NCBI GenBank assembly: GCA_034620365.1
Contig: JAQGEQ010000365.1
Coordinates: 124,001-188,000 of the forward strand
Direction: 5' to 3'
DNA length: 64,000 bases
Source: Pegea sp. RAD2-039
Lineage: Eukaryota; Chordata; Thaliacea; Salpida; Salpidae
Shown: one piece after another, positions 13,586 through 64,000 of the stretch
How positions within the stretch are numbered: position 1 is the first letter of the stretch
How the letters are laid out: the number at the start of each line of letters is the position of its first letter
Translations under genes and position numbers: made by a program
Notes under the pieces: generated by a model
Databases searched by the model: none
Seen by the model: only the letters and a program-made list of their open reading frames with translations
Told to the model about the DNA's origin: nothing

Positions 13586-13591
13586 CTTTTA

Positions 13592-13643
13592 TGTGTGTTA
13601 GCGAGAGGTGCTCTCTTTAGGCACCCTCCTTCACATTTATTGT

Positions 13644-13672
<29 letters not shown>
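13592..13672 (+). mobile_element. Solitary LINE/SINE 3' tail
   Basis: Only the conserved tail is present (gtgtgttagcgagaggtgctctctttaggcacc...), followed by a clean (AAAT)n run. No LINE or SINE body precedes it. It abuts the inverted-repeat arm. Confidence 0.8.
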
Positions 13673-13675
<3 letters not shown>

Positions 13676-22614: not shown

Positions 22615-23020
22615 ATATCAGAATTTTTAAGCTTTTTAATTGAAAAAGACCCTTAAATTCTTTATATCTACTTTTATTATACTTTATATTTACTTCTATA
22701 AAATTTTTAAACTAATGTATCAAAAATTGAATTTCATTTGATGGGAAGCTGTTTGGTCAAGTTGTAGGCCAACATCATTGTTAACTTAAATAAATCATTA
22801 ATACCTAACTATTTGAAATGACACAGATTTGTTCTTCACAGAAGTTTGCTTAGAGATATCACTGAACTTTCTATTAGTAGTTTTGCTTTTATAATTTACA
22901 ATTCTATTTAAATAAGTTTCAGGTTATAGGATATTTGAATTATATTTGTAAATTGTGATAAATCTGTCTGGATAAGAAATCGATTCGAATTATTTGGGTT
23001 GGTGGCACTAAAATTCTTTC

Positions 23021-24556: not shown

Positions 24557-24926
24557 ACCCACATCTTCTTTTTTCAAACTCTCTCCGGACACAATTGTTA
24601 ATACCCAAGATATCAATTTACAGAAGCCCATCATCAAATCTCACAAGCATCAAAAAGACAATTCTTCTATCACATTAGGTATGTTCTTCAACGCGCGGTC
24701 GATTATTAACAAATTTTTTCAATTGAAAGCTCTTTTGCATTCCCAAGATTTCACTTTTGTTTTTATTACTGAAACTTGGTTGAAACCGTTTTATCCTGAT
24801 TCTTTTTCTGGTTGACGGTAATCTTTTTGCTATTTTGTGTTCTGACAGACGGTATGATAGAGGCGGTGTTTGCGTAATCTACAAAACATCGCTTGCACCA
24901 AAGATCTCCAGAATTCAGATCATTTC
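24557..24926 (+). pseudogene. LINE ORF2 N-terminus, truncated (second unit)
   Basis: Same content as 22,261-22,614. A 99-codon frame (24,516-24,815) covers the start of the endonuclease and ends at the same DSFSG-TGA frameshift. It breaks at the same point as unit 1. Confidence 0.85.
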
Positions 24927-25397
24927 ATATCAGAATTTTTAAGCTTTTTAATTGAAAAAGACCCTTAAATTCTTTATATCTACTTTTATTATACTTTATA
25001 TTTACTTCTATAAAATTTTTAAATTGTAAATAACTTTTTTGTAAAGAAATCGAGTTATTTTTAAGTATTTAAATATAGAAAAAAGAGTGAATAAAATAAT
25101 AATATATAATTTTTTTGAATAAATAATAATAACTAAACTAAATATTAAATAAATAAATAAAATAAATAATAACTAAGTAACCATTAAATTTAGAATCAAT
25201 TAAGAAATTAACATCACTGAAAAATTTGAAAATTCAAAGCAAAGATCCTACAAAAAATTTTTTAACAAAATTGTGGTTCTTCATGTAGTAAAAACATTTC
25301 ATCATAAAAATAAATATTTAAAATATTTCCAAATTAGATTATAAAAGATCATTTCAAAACAGTTGAAAATAATTTTATAAAATATTTCAATAAAAAT

Positions 25398-31248: not shown

Positions 31249-34200
31249 CTAAAAGAAGAAATTGAAGAAATTGAAGAAATTGAAGATACATCACCAGGAC
31301 AACTGGGTAGCAACGGCGTTCGACATTTAGTTTTAAAATGAGGTTTTTTATCTAAACCACAAAGACTGTCGGCGACAATTTTATTGTTGCTTGGGTCGAT
31401 ACAATCCCGATAAAATTCTTTAAAATCATTTTCACATGAAGATAAGCAAGCCTTAAGTACTTTCCATTCGCTTAATCTTGGAGCTGAATTAGAAAATAGT
31501 TTTTAATTTTTGTAAACAACAACTTTATTTTGTTTAAAATTGTTTTTTTAATCTTATAAATTCCAACAAACCTGGGCAACCATCACATTCAAATCCACAA
31601 ACCTCACAAACTTCAGTTTGCTCAAAATTCGAAATTGAGTAACTTTCAATAAATCGTCTTTCTGGTAAAAAATTTAGCAACAGTTGATAGAAAACTGTTA
31701 ATCACATGATACATTTCAATATTTTATACGAACCATCAAATAGTATAATTGGATTAGTAAATAAACAACTAATAACTAAATAACATCTCTCAATATACTT
31801 TAAACAAGTTTGCTTTAATTTTTTTTGATTTAAGAAACAAATCTTTAATCTAAATTTTATTTTTTTAATAAAATTAAAAAGAATAAATCTGAAGAAAGTT
31901 CTTTAAAATTTTGAAATAAAATATTTGTTTGTAAAATTGAAATTAAAAAAGTTTAAACCTGGTTGATAGTAGTCTAGAACAGTTATCGTTGGTGGTTTGC
32001 TTCCAGCAACTTGCTGATATCGAAACAATTCAGTAGAAGAACAAATCTCTTCACCTTTAGACAACTAAAAGCGTTTTTCAAAATTTAAGATCGCTGTAAG
32101 TGATATCGATACCTTATCATAATAATAATTGACACTTCCTTTTTTAAACTCTACAAGATTTGCTTCACGATTTCGTCGAATTTCTTCATCTAAATTCACT
32201 TTAAAACCACTTGGGAGGTTGATTTGGTAAAGAAGCATTCCAGTTGAATCATCAGCAGATTCTTTTAAACTTTACAGAGATGAATAATTACTAAATTATC
32301 GATATTTAGGTTAAAAAAAACCTGCAACAAAACTGCAGCCTCGCAAAATCATAACTTCTACAGATCACTTCAAGATCACAATTAAATGGAGAATCAGAAA
32401 ATGGAGATTCAACTATATTGTAGCAAATGGACATTTGTACAACTGCAACTCCAAATCCTGAAGCTTCAATATTAACTTCACCATTAGTAGCAGGTAACTA
32501 AGCAAAATAAATATTTTACAAACTTCAAGTTGTTACACAAATTCAAAATATCTTACATCGATTCTGTTTAAAACCATTGCGTTGTGATTAGATATTCGAA
32601 TGTTTTGAGACACATAATCTTTTGTAACTGTAACATGTAGATCTTGGTTTGAAGTACCAAATAAAGCAGCAACTTCTGATAACGCTTGAATTGCTATTAC
32701 TGTATTCTATAAAGAATTTGTTTTGAAAACTTTTTCTACTTTTTTTGAAGTTGATTTTAAATAATTGATAATTTTAATATCAGAAGTTTTATCAGCTAAA
32801 AATCAGTTTAAGTTCAACTGAAGCATCTTACAATTGTTGTCACGATTTTTGTCATATTATTAGATGATAATAAAACTTGTAACTTTTGAGAAAAAGTCTT
32901 ACTTGAGTATTAGAATAACCTCCGAGTTCGTTACGTTTTGATGTAAGCCATTTAAGAATTGGAACTGCTGAGATGATAGATTTTCTTCTAACATACGTCA
33001 GTAAAGCGTAAGCTGTCATCTCGATATCATTACTTGGTGGTTCTTCGTAGTAAAATTGATACTTTTCATTTAAACTAGATGAAAAGTCATCTGCTTGATG
33101 CCAGTATTTTTGATCATCTATAAAACAAAATATATTTAACTGAAAAATTAGAAATTTGAAGAATTCAAATCTGATAAACATCACTTCGTATTTTGATAAT
33201 TTTTTTATGATTAACGTAAAGTTAGTTTGATTTAACTTGAACCTCATTCAAATTTACTAAAGATAAACAACTTGTGATATTTTAAAAAGTTTTGAAAAGC
33301 TTTTAAAAGATTTTATTAAATGAAGAAATTAGTTTTTATAAAAAAATTATTCTAAAAATTTTATAGAATTTTTTGTGTCTTGAAAAGTTTCTATAAAATG
33401 TAATTATTAAATTTCGTGTAAATCTTAAAACATCATTATTGCTTCTTCTTCTTCTATATTTTTATCAAATATCTTCAAAACTTTGATTAAAAATCGATTC
33501 TAAATATTTATTATTCTTGAATCTTATTTTAAACCGAAGATACAAATATTAAATTTTCTATTTTTAAAAAAAAGTGATAAAAAAATAATTTCAAAAATAT
33601 TTCCAAACTTGATTCAATTGCTAAATCTTCAAGAGCTTCAAACGCGTCATCAGCTCTCGAACTTTCACTTGTATGAAGAGCATACGTCACAATAGAAAGA
33701 GCAAATGAATTTGATCTGATGCTATCAAGATTTACTTCAAGATATCGACGAATCAGAAGTAATTGTTGAAACTAGAAATCGATTTTAAAAATCAAATTTT
33801 CAATTTCAAATTTCTTTTTAAACCTCTTTAAATTTTCCGACTTCTGTCAAAGCCACTAAAACATAAGCAGCTAAAGTGATTGGGGCGTTTACTCCACCCT
33901 AAAATTATCAATTTGAAGAAATAATTTGATTAATTATCACCAACTTGTATTGATTTTGAATAAATATCTCCTGGTTCATTTACACTTCCATCACTGTTCA
34001 CTTGAGACATTAAAAAATAGAATCCATCATCAATATCATGACTCAATTGTTCCTGCATCTCTGGACGAACTAGTCCAGCTTGTTTAAAGCATTTAACAAC
34101 AAATGCAGTCAACCACAAGCTTCCTGACTTATCTCGTTCACCAAAAGCACTGTAAGAACCGTCTGGGTGGCGATAACTACAAAAGAAATTGACATTTTTT

Positions 34201-37200
34201 CAACTAAATCAAATAAATAGTGATAAAGTGGAGATGAATGAACTACTAATTAATAAACTGGATGCAGATAGATACAAAAGAGTCTCTGATAATAACTCAA
34301 ACTACTTTTAAAACTGTTCTTTTAAATTATGATAATTTGGAAAAAGTTTTTAAAGATTTCAAGATGATCTGAAAACTTGATTAAGTTCTTATATTCAATA
34401 GAAAACTGTTAGATTGTCACAATAAGTAGATAGTTGAAATAAACCTAATAATTTATCTGATATATACTTGTTTCAAAAAAGGTTTTTCTTCAACTTACTT
34501 CAGTTGGTTTTGGTATCCTTGTAAGAAATGCTTGTAAGCAGTTTCTTTAGTTTCTTCATCTAATATTCCAGCATTTCGAAGATACAAAGTCACAAAGACA
34601 TCAGGAGCAAATGACATCATATTTTGTTCTCCACAACCGGTTGGCTCTCGAAGTAAACTTCCTAAATTGCTTCTGGTACTTCCCATTATATCTCCTAAAA
34701 GTTTAGAATATTTTGAAAATCATTAATAGAAAACTTTTTCTTCAAACCTCTATTTTCTAATTCTAATTACTTCATTAAACATTTTAACATTTATTTGAAA
34801 TCTTTTGTAAAAATTCTCATCAAATTTTAAATCTTTATTTTTAATTTAAATATCAAAAAGATTCGATCAAAAAATTCAACTTCTTCTAAATTGCAAAAAA
34901 TAATAAAATTTGAAAAAGTAGAAAAAATGTTTAGACAAGTTGACGATAAAGTAAATCAATCTACTAATATATAGTAGTTTGTATCTAACAATATGAAATC
35001 TTTATGGAATATAGTAAAGTGATATTTGAAGAATTGTTAACAACAAGTATTTTACAAGCTTACCAAAAACAATCATCTTTACACTTTCAGATCCAAGAAC
35101 AAATTCAGAAGGTAGTTGTACATTGAGCTGTTTAACAGAGTCTTCATTTGTTCTACTATCACGTCTGATTAAGACAGATTGAGACGAACATTGTTGAAGA
35201 CCTTCAGGCTTTTACAAAAGATTTGTTGCAAAAAAAACATAAAAATATTGACATCAGATACCTTCACAGAAATCTTTCTAATCAATGAATCAGCTGCAAT
35301 TACTGATGATGCAGATACTTGAATATCAATTTCTCCAATTTGATTCATCTTCAATGGGAAAGATATTGAATATTGATCTTCTGCACGAATTTTAATTCGA
35401 CGAATTCTACCAGCAACTGCTTCATCATCAACTGGCATGATTAGTTCGAATCCATTTGAGTTTTTGTGAAGTTTCACTTTCACCTGAATTCAGATTTTTT
35501 AAAAGTGATTTTTAAGCATTCTAAAGTTTTTAAAACTTTGATTCAATCACCAAATTACTTTTATTATCAATCTAACTAACCATCAAGTCCATTTTGAAGT
35601 AGTTGAAGATGATTGCTTGAATTATTACAATCTCTCCTCGTATCACTTTCAATGGAACATTTAAATTGATAAAAAAGTTTCTGAAAACTCTAATCTACAA
35701 AAATATGATTCTATTATTTGATGATTAAATTATATTTGAAGATTTTCGTTGTGAAGCTTTTTATGAAGTTTATAAATAAGTTTTAATCTGTGATTTGTTT
35801 TTATTTAAAGTTGTTGTCAGTTAGATTGTTTTTGTATTTGTATTTTTAGAACAAATTTTGAAGATTTTAAGATGTTGGAATCATAACATTTAGAAATATT
35901 ATCGATTTTCAAGAATTATTCTGAATAATTAAAACTTTCTATTGAAAATCTTAAAATATTTTTCCAGTATTTTTTTATGTTGTATAAAGATAAAAAAAGT
36001 TTTTTATTTCATTTGAAAATTGAGATTATTTTGAAGTAACTTTTTTCTTGAAAATTTCGTTGAAAAAACTTAAATTGTTTTAATTTATTAGATTTATTTT
36101 CTGCTGTTATTTTTTTAATTTATTTAATATGAGATTTTAAACTTTATAAAAAAGTTTTGTTACTTATCACTTAATTTTTCATAAAAAAAACTATTTTTTA
36201 TATTTTATTTACAATTAATTTTATAATTTTTATTTAAAACAATCTAATAACTAACTTTTTAAGCTTTTAAAACTTTGAAACTTTCAGTTTAGTAAAGAGT
36301 AGATATTATTTCACTGAAATATTCTGAAGTATTTTTGTGGATACATTTATCTTTAGAATAACTCAAATAGTTTTACTTTTATATCAACCAATCAATTTTC
36401 TAACTTTCATTTTTCAATCTTTTAAATCTTTTTTAAAAATTTCTATTTCTTCAAATTGATTATTTCAAATCAATCACCTGTGATGAAGTAGCAACACCTA
36501 AACCATAGTTTTCAGATACTGAGAAAGCATTCAACACCCATGATGTAATTGTATCTGGTACAGTAGTATTGAATATTACTTCACCATTTTCACTACAATT
36601 CAATTTGAGATTTTATTATTGAATTATTATCATCAAAATATTACCTGGTCAAAAATTCTTTCCAAATCCAAGTCTCAGGGAAAAAGGTTCGAGGGTCTTT
36701 TACTTCAGTGTCTTCTGATGTAGAATCGTCATGGAAACGGAAACGCTTTCTGTCATCGCGGGAAATATTCTTCATTTTTATAACTGATCATGAATAACTC
36801 ACTTTGTAATTTGCTGTCTTATTGGTTTAATAGAATTATCTACAGATTGAAGGTTGTTAACTCCAGAAGCTCCTGGAGGAAATCCAAACAGCGCAGATGG
36901 AATTGATTCTGATGAACAATTTAACTTTCAACAAAATTTTGAATAAAAAAAATTCACAAATTAAAATTTGATTCAAAATTTATTCCAAAAACTTATTTTC
37001 TCTCTCAAAACCAAATATTTAAATATTTGTATTTAAACCACTACAAGTTAAATTACTTAAAAATTAGCTATTATATATTTATATTTATATTTATTTATTA
37101 TAAGGGTTTGTTTGAATGTTTGTTAACAAGAGATGCTCTCTTCAGACACCTTCCTTCGCATTTATTGCAATTAATAAATAAAAACTAACTGATATAATTT

Positions 37201-40200
37201 TTTTTGAAGTCGTTAAAAAACTAAATTTTATCAGAAATTTAAATTACTTTCATGGATATAAGCATCTGTTAAAACATTTATTGAGCTTGATTGAAAGATG
37301 CTTGTAGCTGTCGACCCTTCGTTAGTTCTCGGCCACCAATCATGAATATGACGTTTACTACCACCAGAATATTTTAACATTTGTCTTGTTATCTGTAATT
37401 AAATTCAAATTCAAACTAATGTATAAAACTTTTGGCAAAATTCTCAATAATTTGTAGTTTTAATTTGTTTTTTCACCATAATACATTAAATATTTTCGAA
37501 AACATTTTCTTCTTTCATTTACCTCATTTATTGAAACCTCATTAGCATCTTTCATCAACAAAACACTTTTATCAATAGCTTGTAATCCTACAAGACTTCC
37601 TCTTTCAGATGTTTGAACTGAAATTTGAATATTGCTTCCAGCATCAACTGAATCAGCTGATGTTTGCAGCAGAACCTATGATACAGTTTGATTAGCAGTT
37701 AATATACTTTGATCTACAGAAAACTTGTTTTTATTAAAAGTACTGCTTCTTTAGTTTCATCAATGTCAGTGACAAATTGCGTCATGAATGACGCGTGAGA
37801 TGTGAAGGAGGGTACCTAAAAAGAGCACCTCTCGCTAACACACATTCTCACAAATTAGATCTATTTGACGTGTAAACGAAAAAGCATATGACAGTGAAGA
37901 ATTGCACAGAATCATAGTATTGTAAAAGAGAAAAATTCACAGTTTAGAAATGGCAATGTTGGCGATATCATAACAATTCAGCTTTTTCTTGAACAGCATA
38001 AGTGATTTTGACATGACAATCTCTGATGGCAGATTGTTCCATGTACTGATTGTGCGGTATGAGAAAAAACTTAATCTGGTTAACGTAGCTGGTGGAGTGG
38101 GCTTATTAAGATGTAATTTATGTCTTCTAAGTTGATATAGCTTGAGGGAGGGACTAATGGAGAAAAAGTCATCAAACTGAAGATCAATTAGGTTGTGAAT
38201 AATTTTAAAAATCAGAATAAGGTCGTATTTGATTCTTCGGATTTCCAAAGTATCTAGATTGAAGAAGCTGAGACGATGCTTATAACTCTCGTATTTGATA
38301 TTACGTTTCCTGCAAACCAATCTCGTAAATGTTGCCTGAACAGATTCGATTTTTCTGATATCACCATATATTAATCATATATTATTAATCAGTTAAATAT
38401 TTAATATTTGCAAATAAAAAACTCAATTATAATGTTTCAATATTTCTAATCTAAAGATAAATGTTATATAAATGTAAAGGTTGTTGCTTATTAGTTTAAT
38501 AATTCAGATAATGCAAGTTGTAATTAGTTAAAGGATGAATTGTTTTATGTTAGTTGAACAACTTACTTTATTTTCTAATGAAACACCAACAGTAATTGTG
38601 ATGTAATCTGCTACAATCTCACCGTCTTGTCTCACATAAGATACTAAAATAGTAGCTGATGGTGACATTTGACGAGTGATCAAAAGTTCATAGTTCACTG
38701 ATTTTGAGTTGCTGTCATATGTGACTTGTTGATTGGATAGAATATTTCCTTTTGATTTAATCTAAAATTAGAACTTTTAGAACTTAACAGAGTAATTTGT
38801 GAAAACTTTTAAGTTTATTTATCTAAACTATCAACTAAATGATTAATAATATTTGTAACAAAAATATATTTTGATAATTAAAGAAGTCACTATATTATTA
38901 TAATTATATTATTATTATTATATATTATTATTAAACCGAAAAGATGAAACCTTAATTTTTGTAATATTAATATATATTCTTACATCTGAATTTAATTAGT
39001 GTAAATTTAAAGTGAAGTTTGATATTGTAGAAGAAGTTGCAATTAATATCAAAAACAATTCACTTACTGAATAATGAAGTTTTTCAAAAAACTTATTTGA
39101 TCTAACAGTAAAGTTTGCTGTTTTTCCAACTTCAAATCTATTTTCATTTGAAATGATTTGTAGAAAGGTGTTAGAAGGTGAGTCAGCTATTGAAGCTTTC
39201 CATTTAATTGTATTTATTTGACTTTTTCCAAGTATTAGAGCCTATGTAAGAAGAAAGAAGAAATGAAATTTAAAAAAATATTGATGATTTTCAAATGAAA
39301 TTGAAGTTTACAATCAAATTTATTTTTTATATTTATCATCAAACACTAGAAAGTTTTTACTTCATCAAAATATCTCAAAAATCTTTTAAAAAAATTACTA
39401 ATTTACTATCTAATACCTCAATATTTAAATAATTTAATTATTATTTACTGATTCATTAATATTTAAACAATTTAGAAAAAATTGATTATTTAAGTTTTAT
39501 GAAATTACTTTGAAATTAATTTCAGAGAAATGAAAATCGGTCTGAAAGTTGACAACAACTAATCCATCTGGTAAAATTTCATAATCTTTTGTTAAAACGT
39601 TTTGACCAGAAGCTAGTTGTGGTCGTTGTGGTCTGTAGTCTCTATAGCTTTCATACTTATATGGACCAGTAGCTGGTCCAGAAGCTGGACCAGAACGTGG
39701 ACCAGAAGATGGTCCAGAAGATAGACCAGAAGGTGGTCCAGAAGATGGTCCAGAAGATAGACCAGAAGGTGGTCCAGAAGGTGGTCCAGAAGATGGTACA
39801 GAAGCTGGGCCTGAAAGTGGACTAGAAGCTGGGCCAGAAAGTGGACCAGAAGATGGACCAGAAGATGGACCAGAACGTGGACCAGAAAGTGGACCAGAAG
39901 CTGGACCAGAAAGTGGACCAGAAGATAGACCAGAAGGTGGACTAGAATGTGTGCCAGATGGTCCAGAAGATAGACCAGAAGATGGTCCAGAAGATAGACC
40001 AGAAGGTGGGCTAGAATATGTGCCTGGTGAACCACCAAGTCCAAAACGTCCTCTGCTGTGAAAAAATACTTTTAAATTTTTACTAAATAGAAATTCAATT
40101 TGATAACTTACTTGACAGAAACTATTATTGTGAGATTATGATTTTTTCTAAATGAATCTTCAACTAACTTCCCATCTACTTCAACCACTTTTAACTGAAC

Positions 40201-41871
40201 AATCCAAGTTGAAACACTTAAATACCATTTTGAAAAATACTTACATAAGCAATATACTGAAGGTTTGATTTAAATATGTTTGGTGTAAAAAGTTTCTTGA
40301 TAGTGATTGGTTGTTCTGCTGAAATTATTTGTCGTTTTGTATCAACTTTAATATTTGTAGAAACTTCTGTGACAGAAGCAACTATTTCAATATTTGAGGT
40401 TCTTTCAATCAAAGATTTGAATGTTGAAGAGCTTATAAACATTTCAGCTTCTCCAGAAAAGTTCTTTCAAACATAAAAACAAATTTGAAGTTTTTAATAT
40501 CTGAGAAGAAATCAATCTTACTGTGAAATGCATTTCAACTGACGGTTTAGAAATTGTTTCATAGTTTCTATGATAATTGTGTCTTCTTAATTCCATGATG
40601 TAAACTTGAATAGATGCAATACCTTTAACGTGCTTCCCGAATGTATATCTATAAGATCTCTAAATTTAAATCTATCTAATATCAGTTTAGACTACAAAAT
40701 CACTTTATAAGAATCTTTACATTTGAGTTAATTGATATAAATGATTACAAGATGACATGCTAACTTACTTTGCTTGCAACTTAACAGTTAAACCATCAGA
40801 TGATAAATAGTAGTAATTAGGAGCTTTTATCATCACCTCAAATCTTGGTAGTTTGTAAGTTTTCACTTGAAATTTCACTTTATAACGATACTTCTGTAAA
40901 TTCAATCATTTTTATTCATATTCTAGTTAGACATCAAAACTTACAGTTATATGATCGGTTGCTTTAATCGTCCAATCACCAGCTGGTGTATCTTCATGAA
41001 TTTGTAGTTCATCACTAACTACACCAAGAGTTGGAACTTGATTCTTCTTCAACAGAATCACGTTTGATTTGGAGTCAGTAATCTCATAATTCAGTTTATG
41101 AGTCAAAGGTTTCAAATTGACATCAAGATTTATTATTCTGAATTTCACTGAATATAAAACATCAAATTTCAACAAATTCACTTTTTTAAATAATTTGTAA
41201 ATATTTGTCACCTATTTGTCCAGGTTTATACGCAGATTTATCAGTTTGAATAAACATTGATTGAATATTTGTTATGATTAAAAAGTTCAAAGTGTAGTCA
41301 GTAAAGATGAATCCTCCGAATTGATTTCTTCCTCTAATCTCCAGTTTTAATTTATTTTTTCGAGTCAAAGTGAGAGGAAGCTGAAGAAATTTGAATTGAT
41401 TTTGTCAACAAATCTATCTTGTATACACGACTACTTTATAAATCTCACTTTTCTTGTTGTAATCATTCGGCTTCCTCCTGAAATTTAAAACATCAGTTTG
41501 AAAATCAGTTTAATTTTTCAAATCACTAATTGATTGATTCAATAAATATTTCAACAAACGAAAAATCTTCTATTTAAATGTAGTAATTACCTCTTGAAAC
41601 CACTGCTGAATCCACAGACAGTGTCCCATGTCTGTGAGTTAAGGTCCCAGTGACTCTAACGTCCTCAGTTGCTATCAAATTGTGGACCACATAATTGATT
41701 GGTTGCCCTGGACGCACAAACTTTGGGACATATATCAGATATTGACTGAAAATAACAAAAACTGAATAATTTCATGAAAGATTTTTGATTTTTTTTGACT
41801 TACTTTCGAGCTGAAGTTAATTGAAAGAAGCAAAATACTGAAATAAAAATCAACTTCAAAATAATTTTCAT
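30088..41871 (-). CDS. Alpha-2-macroglobulin/TEP protein, copy A, with TSP1-like and LamG C-terminal modules
   Basis: I assemble 36 exons, about 1,929 residues, all phases matching. Exons (high to low): 41871-41804, 41745-41591, 41477-41449, 41380-41212, 41147-40945, 40893-40769, 40648-40522, 40463-40245, 40194-40112, 40055-39509, 39241-39068, 38761-38567, 37675-37523, 37392-37248, 36908-36803, 36749-36645, 36592-36478, 35694-35581, 35483-35262, 35208-35064, 34694-34499, 34176-33945, 33898-33824, 33771-33609, 33117-32903, 32706-32557, 32497-32322, 32269-32113, 32064-31959, 31661-31572, 31483-31295, 31248-31132, 31073-30890, 30869-30771, 30578-30400, 30350-30088. Domains: signal peptide, MG1-MG6 with bait region, MG7, CUB-like, thioester domain (GCGEQ), receptor-binding domain, then extra modules. 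Such proteins trap proteases or tag targets covalently. Start: first Met of a signal peptide. Confidence 0.9.
31295..31661 (-). other. Cys-rich linker and TSP1-like module of copy A
   Basis: Exon 31,661-31,572 ends in a cluster of cysteines (CEVCGFECDGCPG). Exon 31,483-31,295 encodes W-K-V-x3-C-x3-C, an R-x-C, a C-G-x3-K-P and further Cys. This is the spacing of an ADAMTS-type thrombospondin-1 repeat, although the usual second Trp is absent. TSP1 modules bind glycosaminoglycans or proteins. I infer the family from Cys and Trp spacing only. Confidence 0.55.
32113..35208 (-). other. Thioester domain through receptor-binding domain of copy A
   Basis: Exon 34,694-34,499 carries PTGCGEQNM, whose Cys and Gln form the internal thioester. 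The downstream position occupied by His in complement C3 and by Asn in A2M aligns with Ser here (SKSIQGG, exon 34,176-33,945), so an A2M-like amide-preferring reactivity is likely. LGGYSNTQ (exon 33,117-32,903) matches the A2M thioester-domain end. LPSGFKVN (32,269-32,113) and TVLDYYQPG (32,064-31,959) match the receptor-binding domain. Two donors here are unusual: GTTGGT after 33,945 and GTTTGG after 33,609. Confidence 0.9.
36645..36908 (-). other. Bait-region exons of copy A
   Basis: Two small exons (36,908-36,803 and 36,749-36,645) separated by a 53-base intron encode about 65 residues just before the invariant RTFFPETWIWKEFLT. The first is hydrophobic, rich in Pro/Gly/Ser (PSALFGFPPGASG). 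The second is basic then acidic (KKRFRFHDDS, SEDTEVKDP) and offers dibasic cleavage sites. Its position matches the protease bait region of A2M. Copy B has unrelated residues here. Confidence 0.8.
37111..37185 (+). mobile_element. Old LINE/SINE tail in an intron of copy A
   Basis: A decayed tail (gaatgtttgttaacaagagatgctctcttcagacacc...atttattgcaattaataaa), antisense to the gene, in the intron before the bait exons. The same tail with the same distinctive 'attgcaattaataaa' end sits at the equivalent place in copy B (58,371-58,441). Confidence 0.85.
37801..38365 (-). mobile_element. LINE 3' part in an intron of copy A
   Basis: About 565 bases on the minus strand match LINE positions 12,200-12,765, including a 127-codon open stretch (38,320-37,937). 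It is sense to the gene, inside the intron between exons 12 and 13. The terminal TAAA run is missing. The end abuts a perfect palindrome (gcgtcat-ga-atgacgc, 37,779-37,794). Copy B lacks this insertion, so it is younger than the duplication. Confidence 0.9.
39509..40055 (-). other. Gly-Pro-Ser-rich insert in MG4 of copy A
   Basis: One 547-base exon. After NRGRFGLGGSPGTY it encodes about 110 residues of imperfect SGPxSGP-type repeats (variants SSGPSSGL, SGPASGPL, PPSGPPSG), then a Tyr/Arg-rich stretch (YESYRDYRPQRP) and finally a normal MG strand (ILPDGLVVVNFQ). The insert is in phase and has no stop. Copy B has two short unrelated exons here. The low-complexity segment would be extended and flexible, and its Ser residues are candidates for O-glycosylation. 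Confidence 0.85.
40112..41871 (-). other. Signal peptide and MG1-MG4 exons of copy A
   Basis: Exon 1 encodes a hydrophobic leader (MKIILKLIFISVFCFFQ...). Exon 2 has YLIYVPKFVRPGQPINY (MG1). Exon 3 is only 29 bases (GGSRMITTRK). Exon 4 has MFIQTDKSAYKPGQ (start of MG2). Exon 5 has the conserved GDWTIKA. Exon 6 has LPRFEVMIKAP (MG3). Exon 8 has FTPNIFKSNLQY (MG4). Exons 2 and 5 are nearly identical in DNA to copy B, while exons 1, 3, 4 and 6-9 differ strongly. Confidence 0.85.
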
Positions 41872-43655: not shown

Positions 43656-44457
43656 TCATGCGCTCGAATTTTTTGTCAAGCTTTAGCTTATACAGATTGG
43701 CAAGAAACTTGCGTTTGTCCCAATTATGCTGAAAGAACACTTTCAACGGTCTTTGATGATCTGAGCTTTTTGCTCCAAGCCTAGTCATTGATACCTTTGG
43801 AACGTCCACAAAATCAAGGCTTTGAGAGCACATTTGATTAAAAAACTTTCTGTCATCATCTTTATCAGTCTCAGAGACATTAAATATGATGACATTGTTT
43901 TCTCTGTATTCACGGTCCTTAGTAAGTTTTATGAACTTGTCGCTGACCTTCTTGGCAAGAAGCTGCACCATGTTAGCATTTTTGTCGGAACCGGGATCAC
44001 CGACCACCGAGGCCCATGTGACTGGTTTCTTTGTAGAGGCATCCAGTTCGTTCGTTGATTTGGACAAACTAAAAATTTCTTTGTTGGTTTTGGCAACATA
44101 GTTGTCAATTTCAGATTTAATTTTGGCTAATTCAGCAGATATAGATTTGCTGATGTCGGATATTAGATCAGAATTAGATGAGGTAGTTGTTATGTCGTTG
44201 ATTATATATTTAGGGCAAAACCATTTAAATCCCATTTGCTTCGTCTGGTTGCATTTAAATATTTCATAAATTTTCTTGCTCACATCACTACAGGTGAGAT
44301 AAAACCAGGAGAGACATTTACAGCATTCTATTAACGGATCTTCACCAGAGCAAATTTCATCGCAATCTTGTTTTGATGAAGTCGGTTTGTCAGAATTTTG
44401 CTGTTCACTTGAACTTAAGGTCTCGTCACTTTTATTAGGATCCACCATAGTTTCCAT
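43645..44457 (-). pseudogene. LINE ORF1, 3'-truncated
   Basis: 270 codons matching the first half of ORF1 at 20,704: PHD-like finger (again WFYLTC, His ligand replaced by Tyr; one later zinc-ligand Cys is also lost in CPKYII), coiled coil and the first RRM-like block up to KKFER. The match breaks at the junction with the plus-strand LINE 3' fragment, so only one block is present and the protein would be truncated. Confidence 0.85.
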
Positions 44458-44745
44458 GAAAGAATTTTAGTGCCACCAACCCAAATAATTCGAATCGATT
44501 TCTTATCCAGACAGATTTATCACAATTTACAAATATAATTCAAATATCCTATAACCTGAAACTTATTTAAATAGAATTGTAAATTATAAAAGCAAAACTA
44601 CTAGTAGAAAGTTCAGTGATTTCTCTAAGCAAACTTCTGTGAAGAACAAATCTGTGTCATTTCAAATAGTGAGGTATTAATGATTTATTTAAGTTAAAAA
44701 TGATGTTGACCTACAACTTGACCAAACAGTCTAAAAAATTTGAAG
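44458..44745 (-). mobile_element. LINE 5' UTR
   Basis: The minus strand matches the 5' regions at 20,410-20,703 and 22,730-23,020 (gttggtggcactaaaattctttc just before the ATG). This is where the internal promoter of the LINE would be expected. Confidence 0.8.
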
Positions 44746-54068: not shown

Positions 54069-57000
54069 ATGAAATTTATGTTGAAACTGATTTTAGTTGG
54101 AACATATTTGTTCATTTATTTGAATTCTACTTTCGCTGAAAAGTAAATCATTCTAAGAATTTTTTGAAACAAAAATGAATAAATCTTTTTGATAATCTCT
54201 TTTATTTTCAGTCAATACCTGATATATATCCCTGAGTTTGTGCGTCCAGGCCAGCCAATCAATTATGTGGTCCACAACCTGATACCAACTGAGGACGTTA
54301 GAGTCACTGGGACCTTAACTCAAGGACATGGGACACTGTCCGTGGATTCAGCAGTGGTTCAGAAAGGTAAATAATCAACTTTTATTCAATATTTTATTGA
54401 TCTAATGTTTTAAAATTAGGAGGAAGTAAAATGTTTTCAACCAAAAATGTGAGTTTTAATTTCTTTAATTTTGTATTCTAAAGTTTTGTTAAACTCAGAT
54501 ATTTTACAAATACTCAAAAAATCTCGAATTTTCAGCTACCATTGAATCTTTCCCAAGAAGAAAGTAACTTAAAACTTGAAGTAATCGGAACAAGTCTAAC
54601 TGGTGATGTGATTTTTTCAAATGAAACTTCAAGCTTTACAATTAACAATGAAATTCAATCAATGTTTATTGAAACTGATAAAGCTGTTTATAAACCAGGA
54701 CAAACTGGTAAGATGTATTCTATATCTTGACCTGCAATAATTTCGACAATTTCTCATAATTATTTTGATCTTTTTAAACTTTTGATATAAAAAACTCTTC
54801 TTGATTTGCAGTGAGATTCAGAGTAATAAATCTTGATGTCAATTTGAAACCTTTGACTCATAATCTGAGTTATGAGATTACTGACTCCAAATCAAACGTG
54901 ATTCTGTTGAAGAAGAATCAAGTTCCAACTCTTGGTGTAGTTAGTGATGAACTACAAATTCATGAAGATACACCAGCTGGTGATTGGACGATTAAAGCTA
55001 GTGATCATTTAACTGTAAGTCTCGTTAACTTGAAGCAGTTAATTGAAAACAAAATTATAGAATTATGAAAAAGAAGTAGAAATTATTATCAAGAATTACA
55101 AATTACCGAAATTCGAAGTGAAGATAAAAGCTCCTCGATTTTACTATTGGATATCTGAAGGTTTAACTATTACGATAGAAGCAACGTGAGATGTTTACTA
55201 CAAAAATATCAAATTCATATCAGAAACATTTTGGTTATATCTTCTTTTTCTGATAATTCCAGATATACTTTTGGAAAGAAAGTTAATGGAGAAGCCCTTA
55301 TCAGAATATGGATTCTTAAACCAAACCCACTTTTGATCAATAAAAAGGTGAAGTTTACAGAATTTGAAAACAATTTTTTTATATATAAATGTAAAGGATG
55401 GCTCCTTAAGAGATCTTATCTCGCTAACAAACATTCTCACGAGTTTTATAATTATGTCTCCACCTGGGTTCGAACCCGGTACTTACTAGCTAGAAGTACT
55501 TTGTAGCTAGGTGTATAAATCGCTTCGCCACCAAACAGGACTAAAATTGATTAGATGCAAAGGTGTATGTTCTAAAATTAGAGTCTTAGTATCAGATTCT
55601 ACGAATCCTCAATTTCAGACTCTAATTGATTTTTTTCGAATTTTTATGAAATAATTAAAAAAAAATTCTTTTCAAAGAACCAATAGTTAATTGAGGAAAT
55701 ATATTTTCGTAGAACTTTGATGGAAAAACTGAAATCTTTGTGAATTCTTCAACACTTAATTCTATGGACATACATCGAATGGGAAAAAGTATTAAAGTGG
55801 ATGCAGTTGTCACAGAATCTCTTACAAAAATAGAAATAAGCAAACAATCTTCGATACCTGTAAAACTACAACCAATAGAAATCAAGAAACTTTTTGCTCC
55901 ACAGATAGTGAAACCTGGTCTACAATACACTGCTTATGTAAATATGTTTAAAAGTTAGTTTAGATAAATGAAATGATTTCATAATTCCAGCTGAAAGTTG
56001 CTGAAATGGATGGAAATTTGATACAGGAATCATTTAGAAAAGAAAATAATTTGACTCTAACATTCTACACCACGTAAGTTTTTGAATTAATTTTAAAAAA
56101 TTTTTATATATAAATGTAAAGGAGGGTGCCTAAAGAGATCTTATCTCGCTAACAAACATTCTCACGAGTTTTATAATTATGTCTCCAACTGGGTTCGAAC
56201 TCGGTACTTACTAGCTAGAAGTACTTTGTAGCTAGGTGTAGCAACCGCTTCGCCACCAAGCAGGACAATTTTAAAATGATTTAAAATATTAAACAGGAAT
56301 GAGATTTATGATGATGATTTTTACGGTTCATATTCAGGATTCACAGAAGATGACTGTAATAGTTGGACTCCAAGGTCAAGAGAAATGCTGCACGGTTAGT
56401 ATAAATAATAAAGAAGCTTAAAAAGTTTTTATTTAATGCAGGTTTGTCAATGTTTTATCCACATCTGAATAAAACTGTGGCCATCTCTCCTGGTGGACTT
56501 GTTGTTGCAAACGTTGAAGTTCCTGAAGTTGAATTCAGAGATATCCATTTTTCAGTAAATAATCTTTCATATTTAATTTTTTAATCAACGCAACAGATGG
56601 TAATTTAGAAAATTTCTATAGTTGATTTTATTCTAATTCGATTATTGACATTCATTTCAAATTGAAAAGTTATCTTCAATAAACTAAAAGACTTTTGTAA
56701 ATAATAAATGATAAACTTTGTTTAATTTACTGTTTCAGGCATTTATAGATGGAATCATTTGCATAAAATTGATCAAATGGAAAGCTTCAATAGCTGACTC
56801 ACCTTCTAACACCTTTCTACAAATCCTTTCAAATGAAAATAGATTTGAAGTTGGAAAAACAGCAAACTTTACTGTTAGATCAAATAAGTTTTTTGAAAAA
56901 CTTCATTATTCAGTAAGTGACTTGTTTTTGATATTAATTGCAACTTCTTCTACAATATCAAACTTCACTTTAAAGTTACACTAATTAAATTCAGATGTAA

Positions 57001-60000
57001 GAATATATATTAATATTACAAAAATTAAGGTTTCATCTTCACCTGTAAAAACTCTTTGATTAATAACACTTAAGCGAGAAGTTGTCGTCGGTTTAATAAT
57101 AATATATAATAATAATAATATAATTATATAATATAGTGACTTGTTTAATTATCAAAATATATTTTTGTTACAAATATTATTAATCATTTAGTTGATAGTT
57201 TAGATGAATAAATTTAAAAGTTTTCACAAATTACTCTGTTAAGTTCTAAAAGTTCTAATTTTAGATTAAATCAAAAGGAAATATTCTATCCAATCAACAA
57301 GTCACATATGACAGCAACTCAAAATCAGTGAACTTTGAACTTTTGATCACTCGTCAAATGTCACCATCAGCTACTATTTTAGTATCTTATGTGAGACAAG
57401 ACGGTGAGATTGTAGCAGATTACATCACAATTACTGTTGGTGTTTCATTAGAAAATAAAGTAAGTTGTTCAACTAACATAAAACAATTCATCCTTTAACT
57501 AATTACAACTTGCATTATCTGAATTATTAAACTAATAAGCAACAACCTTTACATTTATATAACATTTATCTTTAGATTAGAAATATTGAAACATTATAAT
57601 TGAGTTTTTTATTTGCAAATATTAAATATTTAACTGATTAATAATAAGATTAAAACAATAAATTTTACGTCAATTTTAGAGCAACTAAAACATCTTCAAT
57701 AAAGTTTATATAAATTTAATTACAGACAAAATATGAGAACATTTTGAAGTTATTCAATTGTACTTTGATTTCTAGCAAAATTATTAAAATTATTTGGCTT
57801 AAAAAATTGACTTTAATAGAAACTCAGTTTGTTGTTCAAAACAAGTTTTCTGTAGATCAAAGTATATCAACTGCTAATCAAACTGTATCATAGGTTCTGC
57901 TGCAAACATCAGCTGATTCAGTTGATGCTGGAAGCAATATTCAAATTTCAGTTCAAACATCTGAAAGAGGAAGTCTTGTAGGATTACAAGCTATTGATAA
58001 AAGTGTTTTGTTGATGAAAGATGCTAATGAGGTTTCAATAAATAAGGTGAAAGTCAAAAAATAAATAAAAAAAAGTTTATCTGATTGAATTTTTAGCTAA
58101 CTGAAAAAACAAATAAAAATATTTGGATTAAAAGATTTTTTTAAAATACAGATTATAAAAGAAACAGACAAGTATTCAGAATATTCAGGAACATCTCATA
58201 TTCATGATTGGTGGCCGAGAACTAACGAAGGGTCGACAGCTACAAGCATCTTTCAATCAAACTCAATAAATGTTTTAACAGATGCTTATATCCATAAAAG
58301 TAATTTAAATTTCTGATAAAAATTAGTACTTTAGTTTAAACAACATCTCAAAAATTATATCAGTTTTTAGTTTTTATTTATTAATTGCAATAAATGCGAA
58401 TGAATGTGTATGAAAGCATCTCTCGCTAACACACATTCAAATATAATAAATATATATATATCTTTATAATAAATAAATTGCAAATTAACTAAAATAATGA
58501 TTGAATTTAATTAAGTTAGATGTAGAGTAGTTAGACAAGTCGTCTTGTACATTGGTCAAATTGAATTTTTTCTCATATCGCACAATTAGTACATGAAACC
58601 AGCTGCCATCAGACATTGTCATGTCAGAATCACTCGCGTTGTTCAAAAAGAAGTTGAAACGTTATAATATTGCCAACATTGTCATTTCTAAACTGTGATT
58701 GTTTTTATCTTTATTATTATTATTAACATTCTATGTAATTATTCACTATTATATGTTTTGAGGACTACTGAAATGCCATGTGTTCCATCTTTTACTTTCT
58801 ATATTTTTGACTAAACAGATGTTATTTGTGAGAATGTGTGTTAGCGAGAGGTGCTCTCTTCAGGCACCTTCCTTTGCATTTATTGTAATAAATAAATAAT
58901 TACTTATTCAAAGTTTTTTGAAAATTGAATAAACAATTATTTTTTACAATTATTTTAAATCATAATTCGAACTTAAATTTCTTCAAAAAATGTTTAAAAT
59001 TAAAAAAAAATCACTTTTATTTAAACCGAAATTAGAAATTGAGGAAGTAACGTCCGGTAATCATTATCCTGGTGGGGATTACGCAATGTATTATTTATAT
59101 GAGTCTATGTACTCTTATGACGAACCTCCTGAGGAATCTTCTGAGGAATCTTCTGAAGGTAACTCTGTGGAAGCTCCTCGAACCTTTTTCCCTGAAACTT
59201 GGATTTGGAAAGAATTTTTGACCAGGTAATATTTTGATGGTAATAATTCAATAATAAAATCTCAAATTGAATTGTAGTGAAAATGGTGAAGTAATATTCA
59301 ATACTACTGTACCAGATACAATTACATCATGGGTGTTGAATGCTTTCTCAGTATCTGAAAACTATGGTTTAGGTGTTGCTACTTCATCACAGGTGATTGA
59401 TTTGAAATAATCAATTTGAAGAAATAGAAATTTTTAAAAAAGATTTAAAAGATTGAAAAATGAAAGTTAGAAAATTGATTGGTTGATATAAAAGTAAAAC
59501 TATTTGAGTTATTCTAAAGATAAATGTATCCACAAAAATACTTCAGAATATTTCAGTGAAATAATATCTACTCTTTACTAAACTGAAAGTTTCAAAGTTT
59601 TAAAAGCTTAAAAAGTTAATTATTAGATTGTTTTAAAGAAAAATTATAAAATTAATTGTAAATAAAATATAAAAAATAGTTTTTTAAGAAAAATTAAGTG
59701 ATAAGTAGAAAAACATTTTTATAAAGTTTAAAATCTCATATTAAATAAATTAAAAAAATAACAGCAGAAAATAAATCTAATAAATTAAAACAATTTAAGT
59801 TTTTTCAACGAAATTTTCAAGAAAAAAGTTACTTCAAAATAATCTCAATTTTCAAATGAAATAAAAAACTTTTTTTATCTTTATACAACATAAAAAAATA
59901 CTGGAAAAATATTTTAAGATTTTCAATAAAAAGTTTTAATTATTCAGAATAATTCTTGAAAATCGATAATATTTCTAAATGTTATGATTCCAACATCTTA

Positions 60001-63000
60001 AAATCTTCAAAATTTGTTCTAAAAATACAAATACAAAAACAATCTAACTGACAACAACTTTAAATAAAAACAAATCAAAGATTAAAACTTATTTATAAAC
60101 TTCATAAAAATCTTCACAACGAAAATCTTCAAATATAATTTAATCATCAAATAATAGAATCATATTTTTGTAGATTAGAGTTTTCAGAAACTTTTTTATC
60201 AATTTAAATGTTCCATTGAAAGTGATACGAGGAGAGATTGTAATAATTCAAGCAATCATCTTCAACTACTTCAAAATGGACTTGATGGTTAGTTAGATTG
60301 ATAATAAAAGTAATTTGGTGATTGAATCAAAGTTTTGAAAACTTTAGAATGCTTAAAAATCACTTTTAAAAAATCTGAATTCAGGTGAAAGTGAAACTTC
60401 ACAAAAACTCAAATGGATTCGAACTAATCATGCCAGTTGATGATGAAGCAGTTGCTGGTAGAATTCGTCGAATTAAAATTCGTGCAGAAGATCAATATTC
60501 AATATCTTTCCCATTGAAGATGAATCAAATTGGAGAAATTGATATTCAAGTATCTGCATCATCAGTAGTTGCAGCTGATTCATTGATTAGAAAGATTTCT
60601 GTGAAGGTATCTGATGTCAATATTTTTATGTTTTTTTTGCAACAAATCTTTTGTAAAAGCCTGAAGGTCTTCAACAATGTTCGTCTCAATCTGTCTTACT
60701 CAGACGTGATAGTAGAACAAATGAAGACTCTGTTAAACAGCTCAATGTACAACTACCTCCTGAATTTGTTCTTGGATCTGAAAGTGTAAAGATGTTTGTT
60801 TATGGTAAGCTTGTAAAATACTTGTTGTTAACAATTCTTCAAATATCACTTTACTATATTCCATAAAGATTTTATATTGTTAGATACAAACTACTATATA
60901 TTAGTAGATTGATTTACTTTATCGTCAACTTGTCTAAACATATTTTCTAATCTTTCAAATTTTATTATTTTTTGCAATTTAGAAGAAGTTAAATTTTTTG
61001 ATCAAATCTTTTTAATATTTAAATTAAAAATAAAAATTTAAAATTTGATGAAAATTTTTACAAAAGATTTCAAATAAATGTTAAAATGTTTAATGAAGTA
61101 ATTAGAATTAGAAAATAGAGGTTTGAAGAAAAAGTTTTCTATTAATGATTTTCAAATCATTCTAAACTTTTAGGAGATATAATGGGAAGTACCAGAAGCA
61201 ATTTAGGAAGTTTACTTCGAGAACCAACCGGTTGTGGAGAACAAAATATGATGTCATTTGCTCCTGATGTCTTTGTGACTTTGTATCTTCGAAATGCTGG
61301 AATATTAGATGAAGAAACTAAAGAAACTGCTTACAAGCATTTCTTACAAGGATACCAAAACCAACTGAAGTAAGTTGAAGAAAAACCTTTTTTGAAACAA
61401 GTAAATATCAGATAAATTATTAGGTTTATTTCAACTATCTACTTATTGTGACAATCTAACAGTTTTCTATTGAATATAAGAACTTAATCAAGTTTTCAGA
61501 TCATCTTGAAATCTTTGAAAACTTTTTCCAAATTATCTTAATTTAAAATATTAGTTTTAAAAGTAGTTTGAGTTATTATCAGAGACTCTTTTGTATCTAT
61601 CTGCATCCAGTTTATTAATTAGTAGTTCATTCATCTCCACTTTATCACTATTTATTTGATTTAGTTGAAAAAATGTCAATTTCTTTTGTAGTTATCGCCA
61701 CCTAGATGGTTCTTACAGTGCTTTTGGTGAAGAAGATGAGTCAGGAAGCTTGTGGTTGACTGCATTTGTTGTTAAATGTTTTAAACAAGCTGGACTAGTT
61801 CGTCCTGAGATGCAGGAACAATTGAGTCATGATATTGATGATGGATTCTATTTTTTAATGTCTCAAGTGAATAGTGATGGAAGTGTAAATGAACCAGGAG
61901 ATATTTATTCAAAATCAATACAAGTTGGTGATAATTAATCAAATTATTTCTTCAAATTGATAATTTTAGGGTGGAGTAAGCGCCCCAATCACTTTAGCTG
62001 CTTATGTTTTAGTGGCTTTGACAGAAGTCGGAAAATTTAAAGAGGTTTAAAAAGAAATTTGAAATTGAAAATTTGATTTTTAAAATCGATTTCTAGTTTC
62101 AACAATTACTTCTGATTCGTCGATATCTTGAAGTAAATCTTGATAGCATCAGATCAAATCCATTTGCTCTTTCTATTGTGACGTATGCTCTTCATACAAG
62201 TGAAAGTTCGAGAGCTGATGACGCGTTTGAAGCTCTTGAAGATTTAGCAATTGAATCAAGTTCGGAAATATTTTTGAAATTATTTTTTTATCACTTTTTT
62301 TTTAAAATAGAAAATTTAATATTTGTATCTTCGGTTTAAAATAAGATTCAAGAATAATAAATATTTAGAATCGATTTTTAATCAAAGTTTTGAAGATATT
62401 TGATAAAAATATAGAAGAAGAAGCAATAATGATGTTTTAAGATTTACACGAAATTTAATAAATACATTTTATAGAAACTTTTTAAGACACAAAAATTTCT
62501 ATAAAATTTTTAGAATAATTTTTTTATAAAAACTAATTTCTTCATTTAATAAAATCTTTTAAAAGCTTTTCAAAACTTTTTAAAATATCACAAGTTGTTT
62601 ATCTTTAGTAAATTTGAAGGAGGTTCAAGTTAAATCAAACTAACTTTACGTTAATCATAAAAAAAATATCAAAATACGAAGTGATGTTTATCAGATTTGA
62701 ATTCTTCAAATTTCTAATTTTTCAGTTAAATATATTTTGTTTTATAGATGATCAAAAATACTGGCATCAAGCAGATGACTTTTCATCTAGTTTAAATGAA
62801 AAGTATCAATTTTACTACGAAGAACCACCAAGTAATGATATCGAGATGACAGCTTACGCTTTACTGACGTATGTTAGAAGAAAATCTATCATTTCAGCAG
62901 TTCCAATTCTTAAATGGCTTACATCAAAACGTAACGAACTCGGAGGTTATTCTAATACTCAAGTAAGACTTTTTCTAAAAAGTTACAAGTTTTATTATCA

Positions 63001-63935
63001 TCTAATAATATGACAAAAATCGTGACAACAATTGTAAGATGCTTCAGTTGAACTTAAACTGATTTTTAGCTGATAAAACTTCTGATATTAAAATTATCAA
63101 TTATTTAAAATCAACTTCAAAAAAAGTAGAAAAAGTTTTCAAAACAAATTCTTTATAGAATACAGTAATAGCAATTCAAGCGTTATCAGAAGTTGCTGCT
63201 TTATTTGGTACTTCAAACCAAGATCTACATGTTACAGTTACAAAGGATTATGTGTCTCAAAACATTCGAATATCTAATCACAACGCAATGGTTTTAAACA
63301 GAATCGATGTAAGATATTTTGAATTTGTGTAACAACTTGAAGTTTGTAAAATATTTATTTTGCTTAGTTACCTGCTACTAATGGTCAAGTTAATATTGAA
63401 GCTTCAGGATTTGGAGTTGCAGTTGTACAAATGTCCATTTGCTACAATATAGTTGAATCTCCATTTTCTGATTCTCCATTTAATTGTGATCTTGAAGTGA
63501 TCTGTAGAAGTTATGATTTTGCAAGGCTGCAGTTTTGTTGCAGGTTTTTTTTAACCTAAATATCGATAATTTAGTAATTATTCATCTCTGTAAAGTTTAA
63601 AAGAATCTGCTGATGATTCAACTGGAATGCTTCTTTACCAAATCAACCTCCCAAGTGGTTTTAAAGTGAATTTAGATGAAGAAATCACAAGAAATCGTGA
63701 AGCAAATCTTGTAGAGTTTAAAAAAGGAAGTGTCAATTATTATTACAATAAGGTATCGATATCACTTACAACGTAATTTATTATCTTTGAGAATAAACCT
63801 GCTTGATACAAATTTTTAATAATTCTTAGCTCTCCCAAGGAAATGAAATCTGTTCAACAACTCAAATGAAAAGGTATCAACAAATAGCTGGAAGCAAGCC
63901 ACCAACCATCACTGTTCAAGATTATTACCAACCAG
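54069..63935 (+). CDS. Alpha-2-macroglobulin/TEP protein, copy B (3' end beyond window)
   Basis: 29 exons seen: 54069-54142, 54212-54366, 54420-54448, 54536-54707, 54812-55014, 55061-55185, 55263-55347, 55713-55937, 55991-56073, 56297-56394, 56442-56554, 56739-56912, 57265-57459, 57894-58046, 58152-58299, 59036-59225, 59278-59392, 60174-60287, 60385-60606, 60660-60804, 61174-61369, 61692-61923, 61970-62044, 62097-62259, 62748-62962, 63159-63308, 63368-63543, 63596-63752, 63830-63935. About 1,429 residues: signal peptide, MG1-MG6 with bait region, MG7, CUB-like, thioester domain and receptor-binding domain. Exon lengths match copy A almost everywhere. Phases join without a stop. It is transcribed away from copy A, with THUMPD1 between. 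The frame stays open past 63,935 to the window end, so the last donor is uncertain. It should have the same role as copy A: a secreted thioester protein for protease trapping or target tagging. Confidence 0.9.
55376..55541 (-). mobile_element. tRNA-derived SINE (copy 2) in an intron of A2M copy B
   Basis: On the minus strand there is an A-box-like TGGCGAAGCGATT near 55,532 and a perfect palindromic B box GGGTTCGAACCC (55,466-55,477). A short linker is followed by the LINE-like tail with hairpin GAGAT-AAG-ATCTC and an A/T-rich end near 55,376. It is antisense to the gene, in the intron after exon 7, 28 bases from the donor. Confidence 0.9.
56101..56266 (-). mobile_element. tRNA-derived SINE (copy 3) in an intron of A2M copy B
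   Basis: Very similar to copy 2, and the best preserved A box: TGGCGAAGCGGTTG near 56,255, then B box GAGTTCGAACCC, the linker gagacataattataaaactc, the tail hairpin GAGAT-AAG-ATCTC, ggcaccctcctttacattta and an A/T end near 56,101. It ends 30 bases before the next exon. Confidence 0.92.
58371..58441 (-). mobile_element. Old LINE/SINE tail in an intron of copy B, shared with copy A
   Basis: The tail (tttattaattgcaataaatgcgaatg...ctctcgctaacacacattcaa) lies at the same place, in the same gene-relative orientation and with the same upstream intron sequence as the tail at 37,111-37,185 in copy A. It was therefore inserted before the two genes separated. Confidence 0.88.
58552..58896 (+). mobile_element. 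LINE 3' end in an intron of copy B
   Basis: About 345 bases of the LINE 3' end, from the C-terminal coding region (ttctcatatcgcacaattagtac) to the terminal hairpin and AATAAATAAATAA. It is sense to the gene, in the intron before the bait exon, and absent from copy A. Confidence 0.9.
59036..59225 (+). other. Bait-region exon of copy B
   Basis: A single exon placed before RTFFPETWIWKEFLT. It encodes about 45 residues that are Tyr-rich and then acidic (GGDYAMYYLYESMYSYDEPP, then EESSEESSEGNS). Nothing in it resembles the bait exons of copy A, although the exon's 3' part and the following intron are almost identical between copies. Likely cleavage preferences would differ: aromatic and acidic here, dibasic in copy A. 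Confidence 0.8.
60660..63752 (+). other. Thioester domain and first part of receptor-binding domain of copy B
   Basis: Contains PTGCGEQNM (61,174-61,369), the Ser-type SKSIQGG at the catalytic-His position (junction 61,923/61,970), LGGYSNTQ (exon 62,748-62,962) and LPSGFKVN (63,596-63,752). DNA here, including introns, is almost identical to copy A. Divergence resumes inside the intron after 63,752. The same unusual donors occur (GTTGGT after 61,923, GTTCGG after 62,259). Confidence 0.9.
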
Positions 63936-64000
63936 GTACAACTACTTCTTATATCAAAGTGCTTTTCTCATTTGAAGATTCTCAAATTCGCTTTCGTATT

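Follow-up and report, generated by a model that had tools for sequence, protein, structure and literature searches.

Introduction

Variable baits and gene conversion are each already known in TEPs; the clean layout found in the two gene clusters described below is less usual. For Anopheles gambiae, the portions of Obbard 2008 (PMC2576239) drawn on here describe a conversion chimera among TEP1, TEP5 and TEP6, in which Ks varies along the gene between >1 and about 0.03; the discussion of the same paper places positive selection in TEPs mainly on the bait-like region. Elsewhere the segment is varied through splicing: excerpts of PMC5489563 report alternative exons for this same segment in Drosophila Tep2, and excerpts of PMC7016707 report alternative splicing of bait exons in the scallop Chlamys (CfTEP) and in the snail Biomphalaria (BgA2M, BgTEP2 and BgCD109). 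Among the literature matches listed, titles and the opening parts of abstracts contain no mention of private baits among converted TEP copies.

Here we describe two genes, A and B, together with their relatives, in DNA of Pegea sp. RAD2-039. The stretch analysed, hereafter the window, is 64,000 nucleotides long in its entirety and lies within a 444-kb contig of a 105.7-Mb assembly; the stretches examined have 27-33% GC. This GC content is similar to the 26.4% given for the rotifer Brachionus plicatilis in excerpts of PMC8351084, but two B. manjavacas primers taken from PMC2746195 had no match when up to 2 mismatches were allowed. Searches of the genome for PBP_GOBP and Chitin_bind_4, two families expected in insects, and for LEA_4 gave no match, where A2M-family exons were detected by the same method; since the controls were equally silent, these negatives do not establish absence. 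As far as the excerpted sources describe them, Tep2, CfTEP and the Biomphalaria genes resemble copies A-D in bearing a variable bait or hypervariable segment on a constant thioester scaffold, but whereas genes of the Tep2 type hold several such exons each, every copy A-D appears, judged from its sequence alone, to have a bait of its own. The likeness to Anopheles TEP1, within the portions of the mosquito work used here, lies in TEP paralogues whose synonymous divergence swings along the gene and in chimeras made by conversion. In that system conversion is described as importing divergent sequence from other loci into TEP1 alleles, the TED included; in A and B, by contrast, it is the TED side that is homogenised, the bait forms a sharp unshared island, and the arrangement is seen in two clusters.

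Gene structure and family assignment

The two genes are inverted relative to each other and comprise 30 modelled exons apiece:

31567..41871, minus strand: gene A, an iTEP/CD109-like thioester protein; spliced model from our own aligner, 1543 aa, with a GCGEQ thioester
54069..64000, plus strand: gene B, the inverted paralogue of A; spliced model, 1430 aa, with a GCGEQ thioester

The last exon of gene B continues beyond the end of the window, to 64427 in window numbering. Both models include a two-base 'exon', probably a fault of the aligner, and both are free of internal stops, a count to be read in the knowledge that the aligner penalises stops. Membership of the A2M superfamily, proposed in a first-pass annotation of this DNA, is borne out, with all five of the Pfam domains MG2, A2M_BRD, A2M, TED_complement and A2M_recep exceeding the cut-off in A and in B. 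Among solved proteins, an approximate B sequence comes nearest to CD109 (E 6.5e-156), and then to A2ML1, A2M and Anopheles TEP1. Human CD109 (PDB codes 8s3o and 9fx2) and A2M have their bait at the same position as A and B, and alignment to CD109 agrees with the earlier view that the variable segment occupies the bait position.

By eye, the models open with a hydrophobic, signal-peptide-like stretch. At the other end, a cysteine stretch of the form C..C...C..C is present in 10/10 models A-J, with 0-4 modelled residues after it; excerpts of PMC7016707 give such a C-terminal stretch as a criterion for iTEPs, that is, insect-type TEPs, which occur in molluscs too. CD109 is recognised by a C-terminal GPI anchor signal; in place of such a hydrophobic anchor A and B, again by eye, appear to have this iTEP-like cysteine end, no hydrophobic tail being seen after it, with the ends of A, C and D lacking a modelled stop. 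The GCGEQ motif is found in 9 of the 10 models A-J, the exception being C, in which the whole TED is missing. A and B are probably long-standing paralogues, and their cluster comprises at least four thioester-protein genes, the products of which are predicted to be secreted.

The two further genes of this cluster, C and D, lie downstream on the same contig. On another contig, C249, genes E, F, G and H are found near each other with I apart; contig C177 carries J, and more domain matches lie on contigs C10, C1, C77, C21 and C6. What had been described as a paired system is not a pair, there being four clustered genes here and five on the other contig. The baits differ among the nine genes read (A-I), and in every one of these nine the bait has an open reading frame.

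The model of gene C (75623-82635 in window numbering, beyond the window) is open over 1146 aa and includes MG2, BRD, A2M and receptor domains; it is without a thioester domain, and in it the exons flanking the gap join in frame. Pseudogenes were considered as an explanation and set aside, since the models of A-D are without stops, but the aligner's penalty on stops applies here too and a frameshift could hide in a false intron. The first model of gene E has one stop, its bait being open nonetheless. An assembly artefact is unlikely, as the different baits of A-D are all found on one contig and the pattern recurs in E-H on another.

Bait regions

In the best spliced models the bait exons fall where the first-pass annotation had put them, and the intron phases at entry to and exit from the bait region are equal in A and B:

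36803..36908, minus strand: first bait exon of A, beginning SIPSALFGFPPGASG; spliced model
36645..36749, minus strand: second bait exon of A, a private part running from KRFRF to an acidic stretch and then the shared PRTFFPETWIWKEFLT; spliced model, with a possible alternative start at 36783
59036..59225, plus strand: bait exon of B, a private part that is Tyr-rich and then Glu/Ser-rich, followed by the shared PRTFFPETWIWKEFLT; spliced model, with a weak acceptor

The A and B baits, taken from the outset to be unrelated, gave a Smith-Waterman score of 21 (p = 0.355, 500 shuffles), and for none of the six pairs among the A-D baits, compared over the part before FPETW, was similarity greater than in 500 shuffled comparisons (p 0.355-0.932). 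Charge also varies, acidic and basic residues numbering 12 and 1 of 48 in the B bait and 2 and 8 of 46 in the C bait; the B bait is loose in composition and partly made up of a short tandem repeat. When the comparison is widened to the 36 pairs among baits A-I, p <= 0.01 is reached in five. Four of these are pairs within the E-H group, in which the baits resemble one another in part; the fifth, A-F, would fail correction for 36 tests. A search of the assembly in which the best-scoring candidates were considered returned no other copy of the A or B bait at E <= 10, the matches at that threshold being only the genes themselves and the shared 3' codons.

Splice sites were scored against 244 modelled introns. 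The best model retains the earlier description of two bait exons in A and one in B, with the qualification that an in-frame acceptor in A, at 36783, could skip the first. For the first bait exon of A the acceptor stands at the 65th and the donor at the 88th percentile; the acceptor of the second stands at the 25th, and the intron between them, of 53 bases, lies between the 10th and 25th length percentiles. The B bait acceptor at 59036 is weak (7th percentile). Use of the alternative A acceptor (48th percentile) would join the previous exon directly to another in-frame bait, and an A isoform without the first bait exon is possible.

Over 31 force-aligned codons the first bait exon of A has 23% protein identity to B, to be compared with a baseline of 47-51% in exons 4, 6, 7 and 8. 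The second has 69% over 29 codons, a higher figure because this exon contains the shared PRTFFPETW part.

Homogenised tract and upstream mosaic

Beyond the bait the two genes become nearly identical:

32113..36694, minus strand: homogenised tract, A side; 98.6% identical to B in exons and introns, its 5' edge within the bait exon
59176..63752, plus strand: homogenised tract, B side; 98.6% identical to A in exons and introns

This 4.6-kb tract, the largest between A and B, begins at the last codons of the bait, takes in the thioester domain and ends close to the 3' end. Its exons are identical at 1965/1992 positions (98.64%) and its introns at 2549/2585 (98.61%), an equality which implies that the sharing is recent and does not stem from protein constraint. 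The longest identical run is 378 bases. Measured in 50-base windows, identity is 45-53% through the bait and then 98-100% from A 36694/B 59176, the 5' edge falling inside the bait exon at the codons for PRTFFPETW; single windows within the tract go as low as 91%, and identity drops after A 32113/B 63752. Almost identical DNA had been reported on both sides of the bait: this is true downstream, introns included, while upstream it applies to patches only.

The upstream half is a mosaic. Exon 13 is 99.3% and exon 14 84% identical between A and B at the DNA level, with 43-59% in the 50-base windows between them, and ~390 bases of A (37083-36694) gave no BLAST match to B at the corresponding place. 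Exons 4, 6, 7 and 8, with the protein identities given above, have dS of 0.54-2.1, to be set beside 0.07 in exon 5 and 0 in exons 12 and 13. Other pairs of genes are closer in places: A-C dS is 0 in exons 5 and 6, the A-B value for exon 6 being 0.69, and in exon 29 B-D dS is 0.05 against 2.9 for A-B. Besides the bait, A and B are diverged in exons 1 (the signal-like peptide), 3, 4, 6-9 and the last two exons. The bait is hence not the sole unshared segment, and this pair alone does not prove protection specific to the bait.

For each pair of genes, in three gene sets, the longest run at silent sites was compared with the expectation from 2000 permutations. With A, B and D, the observed and expected runs were 41 and 16.9 for A-B (p 0.001), 13 and 2.5 for B-D (p 0.0005) and 3 and 1.6 for A-D (p 0.037); the A-B run in this set (exons 9-16) spans the bait, only codons synonymous in all three genes being counted. 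With A, B and C, the A-C run was in excess (9 against 3.8, p 0.0025) and those of A-B (8 against 5.5, p 0.088) and B-C (3 against 2.4, p 0.34) were not significantly so. With all four genes, excesses were obtained for A-B (76 against 16.1, p 0.0005), A-C (25 against 12.4, p 0.0065), B-C (25 against 10.1, p 0.001) and B-D (10 against 3.0, p 0.0005), A-D (p 0.37) and C-D (p 0.76) being not significant. When all variable sites are used, p is < 0.05 for all pairs of each set, runs of this kind also reflecting uneven protein constraint.

Both marks of a gene-conversion mosaic are present, namely synonymous divergence that alternates along the gene and an excess of silent-site runs, and they support interlocus gene conversion, or an equivalent exchange, as its origin. 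The original suggestion of a scaffold homogenised by gene conversion is thus upheld by the step-like dS and the run tests in an amended, patchy form, with the upstream half mosaic.

A second hypervariable cassette

Upstream of A2M_BRD there is a further segment, probably located in MG4, whose sequence is private in each of A-D, with a conserved I(L/S)P(D/G)GxV motif after it:

39509..40055, minus strand: second hypervariable cassette of A; Ser/Gly/Pro-rich, with a 12-bp tandem repeat x29 and then conserved EILPDGLV
56297..56554, plus strand: second hypervariable cassette of B; two modelled exons, 56297-56394 and 56442-56554
77760-78084 in window numbering, beyond the window: second cassette of C
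88294-88442 in window numbering, beyond the window: second cassette of D

Where A exon 9 can be aligned to B, over 64 of 182 codons, the two are 28% identical in protein, against the 47-51% baseline. One of the six pairs among the A-D cassettes beats shuffled sequences (B-D, p 0.002). Among E-H, the bins in which a second cassette is expected contain no divergence peak, the models of these genes being poor there.

Bait divergence in the second cluster

Divergence along a whole-gene alignment of E-H was measured in 484 windows, each 60 columns wide. The median distance is 0.042, exon windows having 0.037 (n=196) and the other windows a mean of 0.079 (n=288). The two highest windows (0.542 and 0.419) both lie within the bait exon, which contains 5 of the top 25 overall; the remainder of these 25, of which one sits immediately ahead of the bait exon, fall in introns or precede the first modelled exon. 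The signal-peptide exon is absent from the E-H models. Both introns flanking the bait exon still align, the preceding one with indels and the following one closely.

Within the E-H bait, where alignment of such short segments is uncertain, the six pairs have pN of 0.28-0.41 and pS of 0.31-0.48, pS elsewhere in the modelled genes being 0.03-0.12. The raised pS fits a segment that was left unconverted or was replaced and does not by itself indicate positive selection; dN/dS in this bait was likewise discarded as proof of positive selection, pN and pS being similar and both high. The bait had been described as replaced or diversified, and what stands of this is that the baits differ; no other copy of the A or B bait was found among the best-scoring candidates of the assembly search, and pN is close to pS in E-H. 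Taken together, the two clusters support a scaffold homogenised patchwise, with the bait having been spared, diversified or both.

Alternative explanations

A recent inverted duplication, after which the bait alone evolved very fast and no gene conversion took place, would give a 4.6-kb tract in which exons and introns are equally alike. Such a history is nevertheless highly improbable: within the same pair of genes, exons with dS near 0 adjoin exons with dS of 0.5-2, and the closest partner is not the same throughout, A pairing with C in exons 5-6 and B with D in exon 29, swings for which a single duplication date cannot account. Alternative bait exons as in Drosophila Tep2, several to a gene with splicing choosing among them, would be compatible with our main reading and are in themselves quite unlikely. 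The acceptor at 36783 in A, by skipping the first bait exon in frame to give a different bait, is an indication in their favour, and in the B intron one more candidate, at 58763-58835, is in frame and has splice sites of fair quality, the acceptor ranking at the 64th percentile and the donor at the 42nd. This candidate, however, belongs to a repeat, the stretch 58544-58902 having matches elsewhere in the window, and does not read through into FPETW. The best candidates in C, from a scan of A, B and C, proved to be the known bait exon and parts of it, and the assembly candidates scored included no match to the A or B bait elsewhere.

Neutral sparing, whereby conversion tracts fall at random and the bait, an unconstrained linker, was missed by chance, we regard as unlikely. 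It would sit comfortably with the other unconverted segments of A and B, with the near equality of pN and pS in the E-H baits and with the partly repetitive, compositionally loose B bait. It sits less well with the second cluster, in which the bait is the peak of divergence and exceeds the non-exon mean of the same genes, or with the fact that the A, B and C baits differ and yet exon 14 (84-90% DNA identity) and the post-bait exon (91-100%) are common to these genes. The open frame in 9/9 baits A-I also counts against it.

Thioester domain and proposed function

The His at the PGRVIHSELQGG position in CD109 is one which we take to be the catalytic His. Inspection by eye places Ser at this TED position in A, B and D, a difference of the first two from CD109, with Asp in E-H and His in I and J; human A2M has Asn there. 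In the excerpts of PMC2685406, protease-trapping alpha-2-macroglobulins are described as possessing the thioester and lacking the catalytic His. The combination of catalytic His and thioester used to recognise iTEP opsonins is not seen in A, B and D, with their Ser, or in E-H, with their Asp. That of an alpha-2-macroglobulin-type trap, a thioester without His together with a bait, is seen, and is a weak criterion since A2ML1 has His at the corresponding position in the alignment. A2ML1 is a protease inhibitor according to excerpts of PMC9156758, so that the argument from His for a trap is weakened; A and B lean, weakly, towards a protease trap rather than an opsonin.

Our preferred reading, which we consider probable, is that conversion homogenises the scaffold and selection keeps the baits distinct, for different proteases. 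The gene structures as modelled, the mosaic of identity, the bait island and its recurrence in the second cluster are seen in the DNA itself, from which selection as the cause, protease trapping and its specificity, and expression are inferred. The proteins of the cluster would serve as traps for proteases or as complement-like sensors. Patches of the A and B scaffolds would be overwritten repeatedly through interlocus gene conversion, with the bait remaining outside the conversion tracts and diverging until the copies are mutually unrecognisable. The likeliest cause would be selection favouring a variety of baits on a single functional scaffold, such that a copy losing its distinct bait through conversion is not retained. 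Different proteases would cut each bait, upon which the protein would collapse and the thioester become exposed.

A tentative extension of this reading is a germline cassette system, in which a shared trap scaffold carries a private bait and a private upstream loop (probably MG4), giving a small fixed repertoire of sensors, and in which conversions that erase a cassette are selected against; gene C, without a thioester domain, may then be a decoy or a trapless bait.

Should the preferred reading be true, the clusters would amount to experiments of nature, with much of the scaffold kept unchanged and the protease-contact segment varying, and a long-standing idea, that diverse TEP baits allow a wider set of proteases to be detected, would become directly testable with sister proteins of one animal. 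Homogenising conversion and local diversification would also be combined in an invertebrate immune-type gene, in a manner comparable to the splicing of Drosophila Tep2.

Neighbouring features

Between A and B, on the plus strand, lies an ORF with a THUMP domain (50241-51557), in which a 24-bp tandem repeat encodes an acidic, Asp/Lys-rich tail. Repeated LINE-like stretches occupy 8546-13850, 17800-19461, 20298-25023 and 43658-44730; they include an ORF with Pfam matches of the endonuclease-reverse-transcriptase type and a ~2.4-kb tandem duplication of 94.7% identity. Fragments related to these LINE-like stretches are also held in the introns of A and B.
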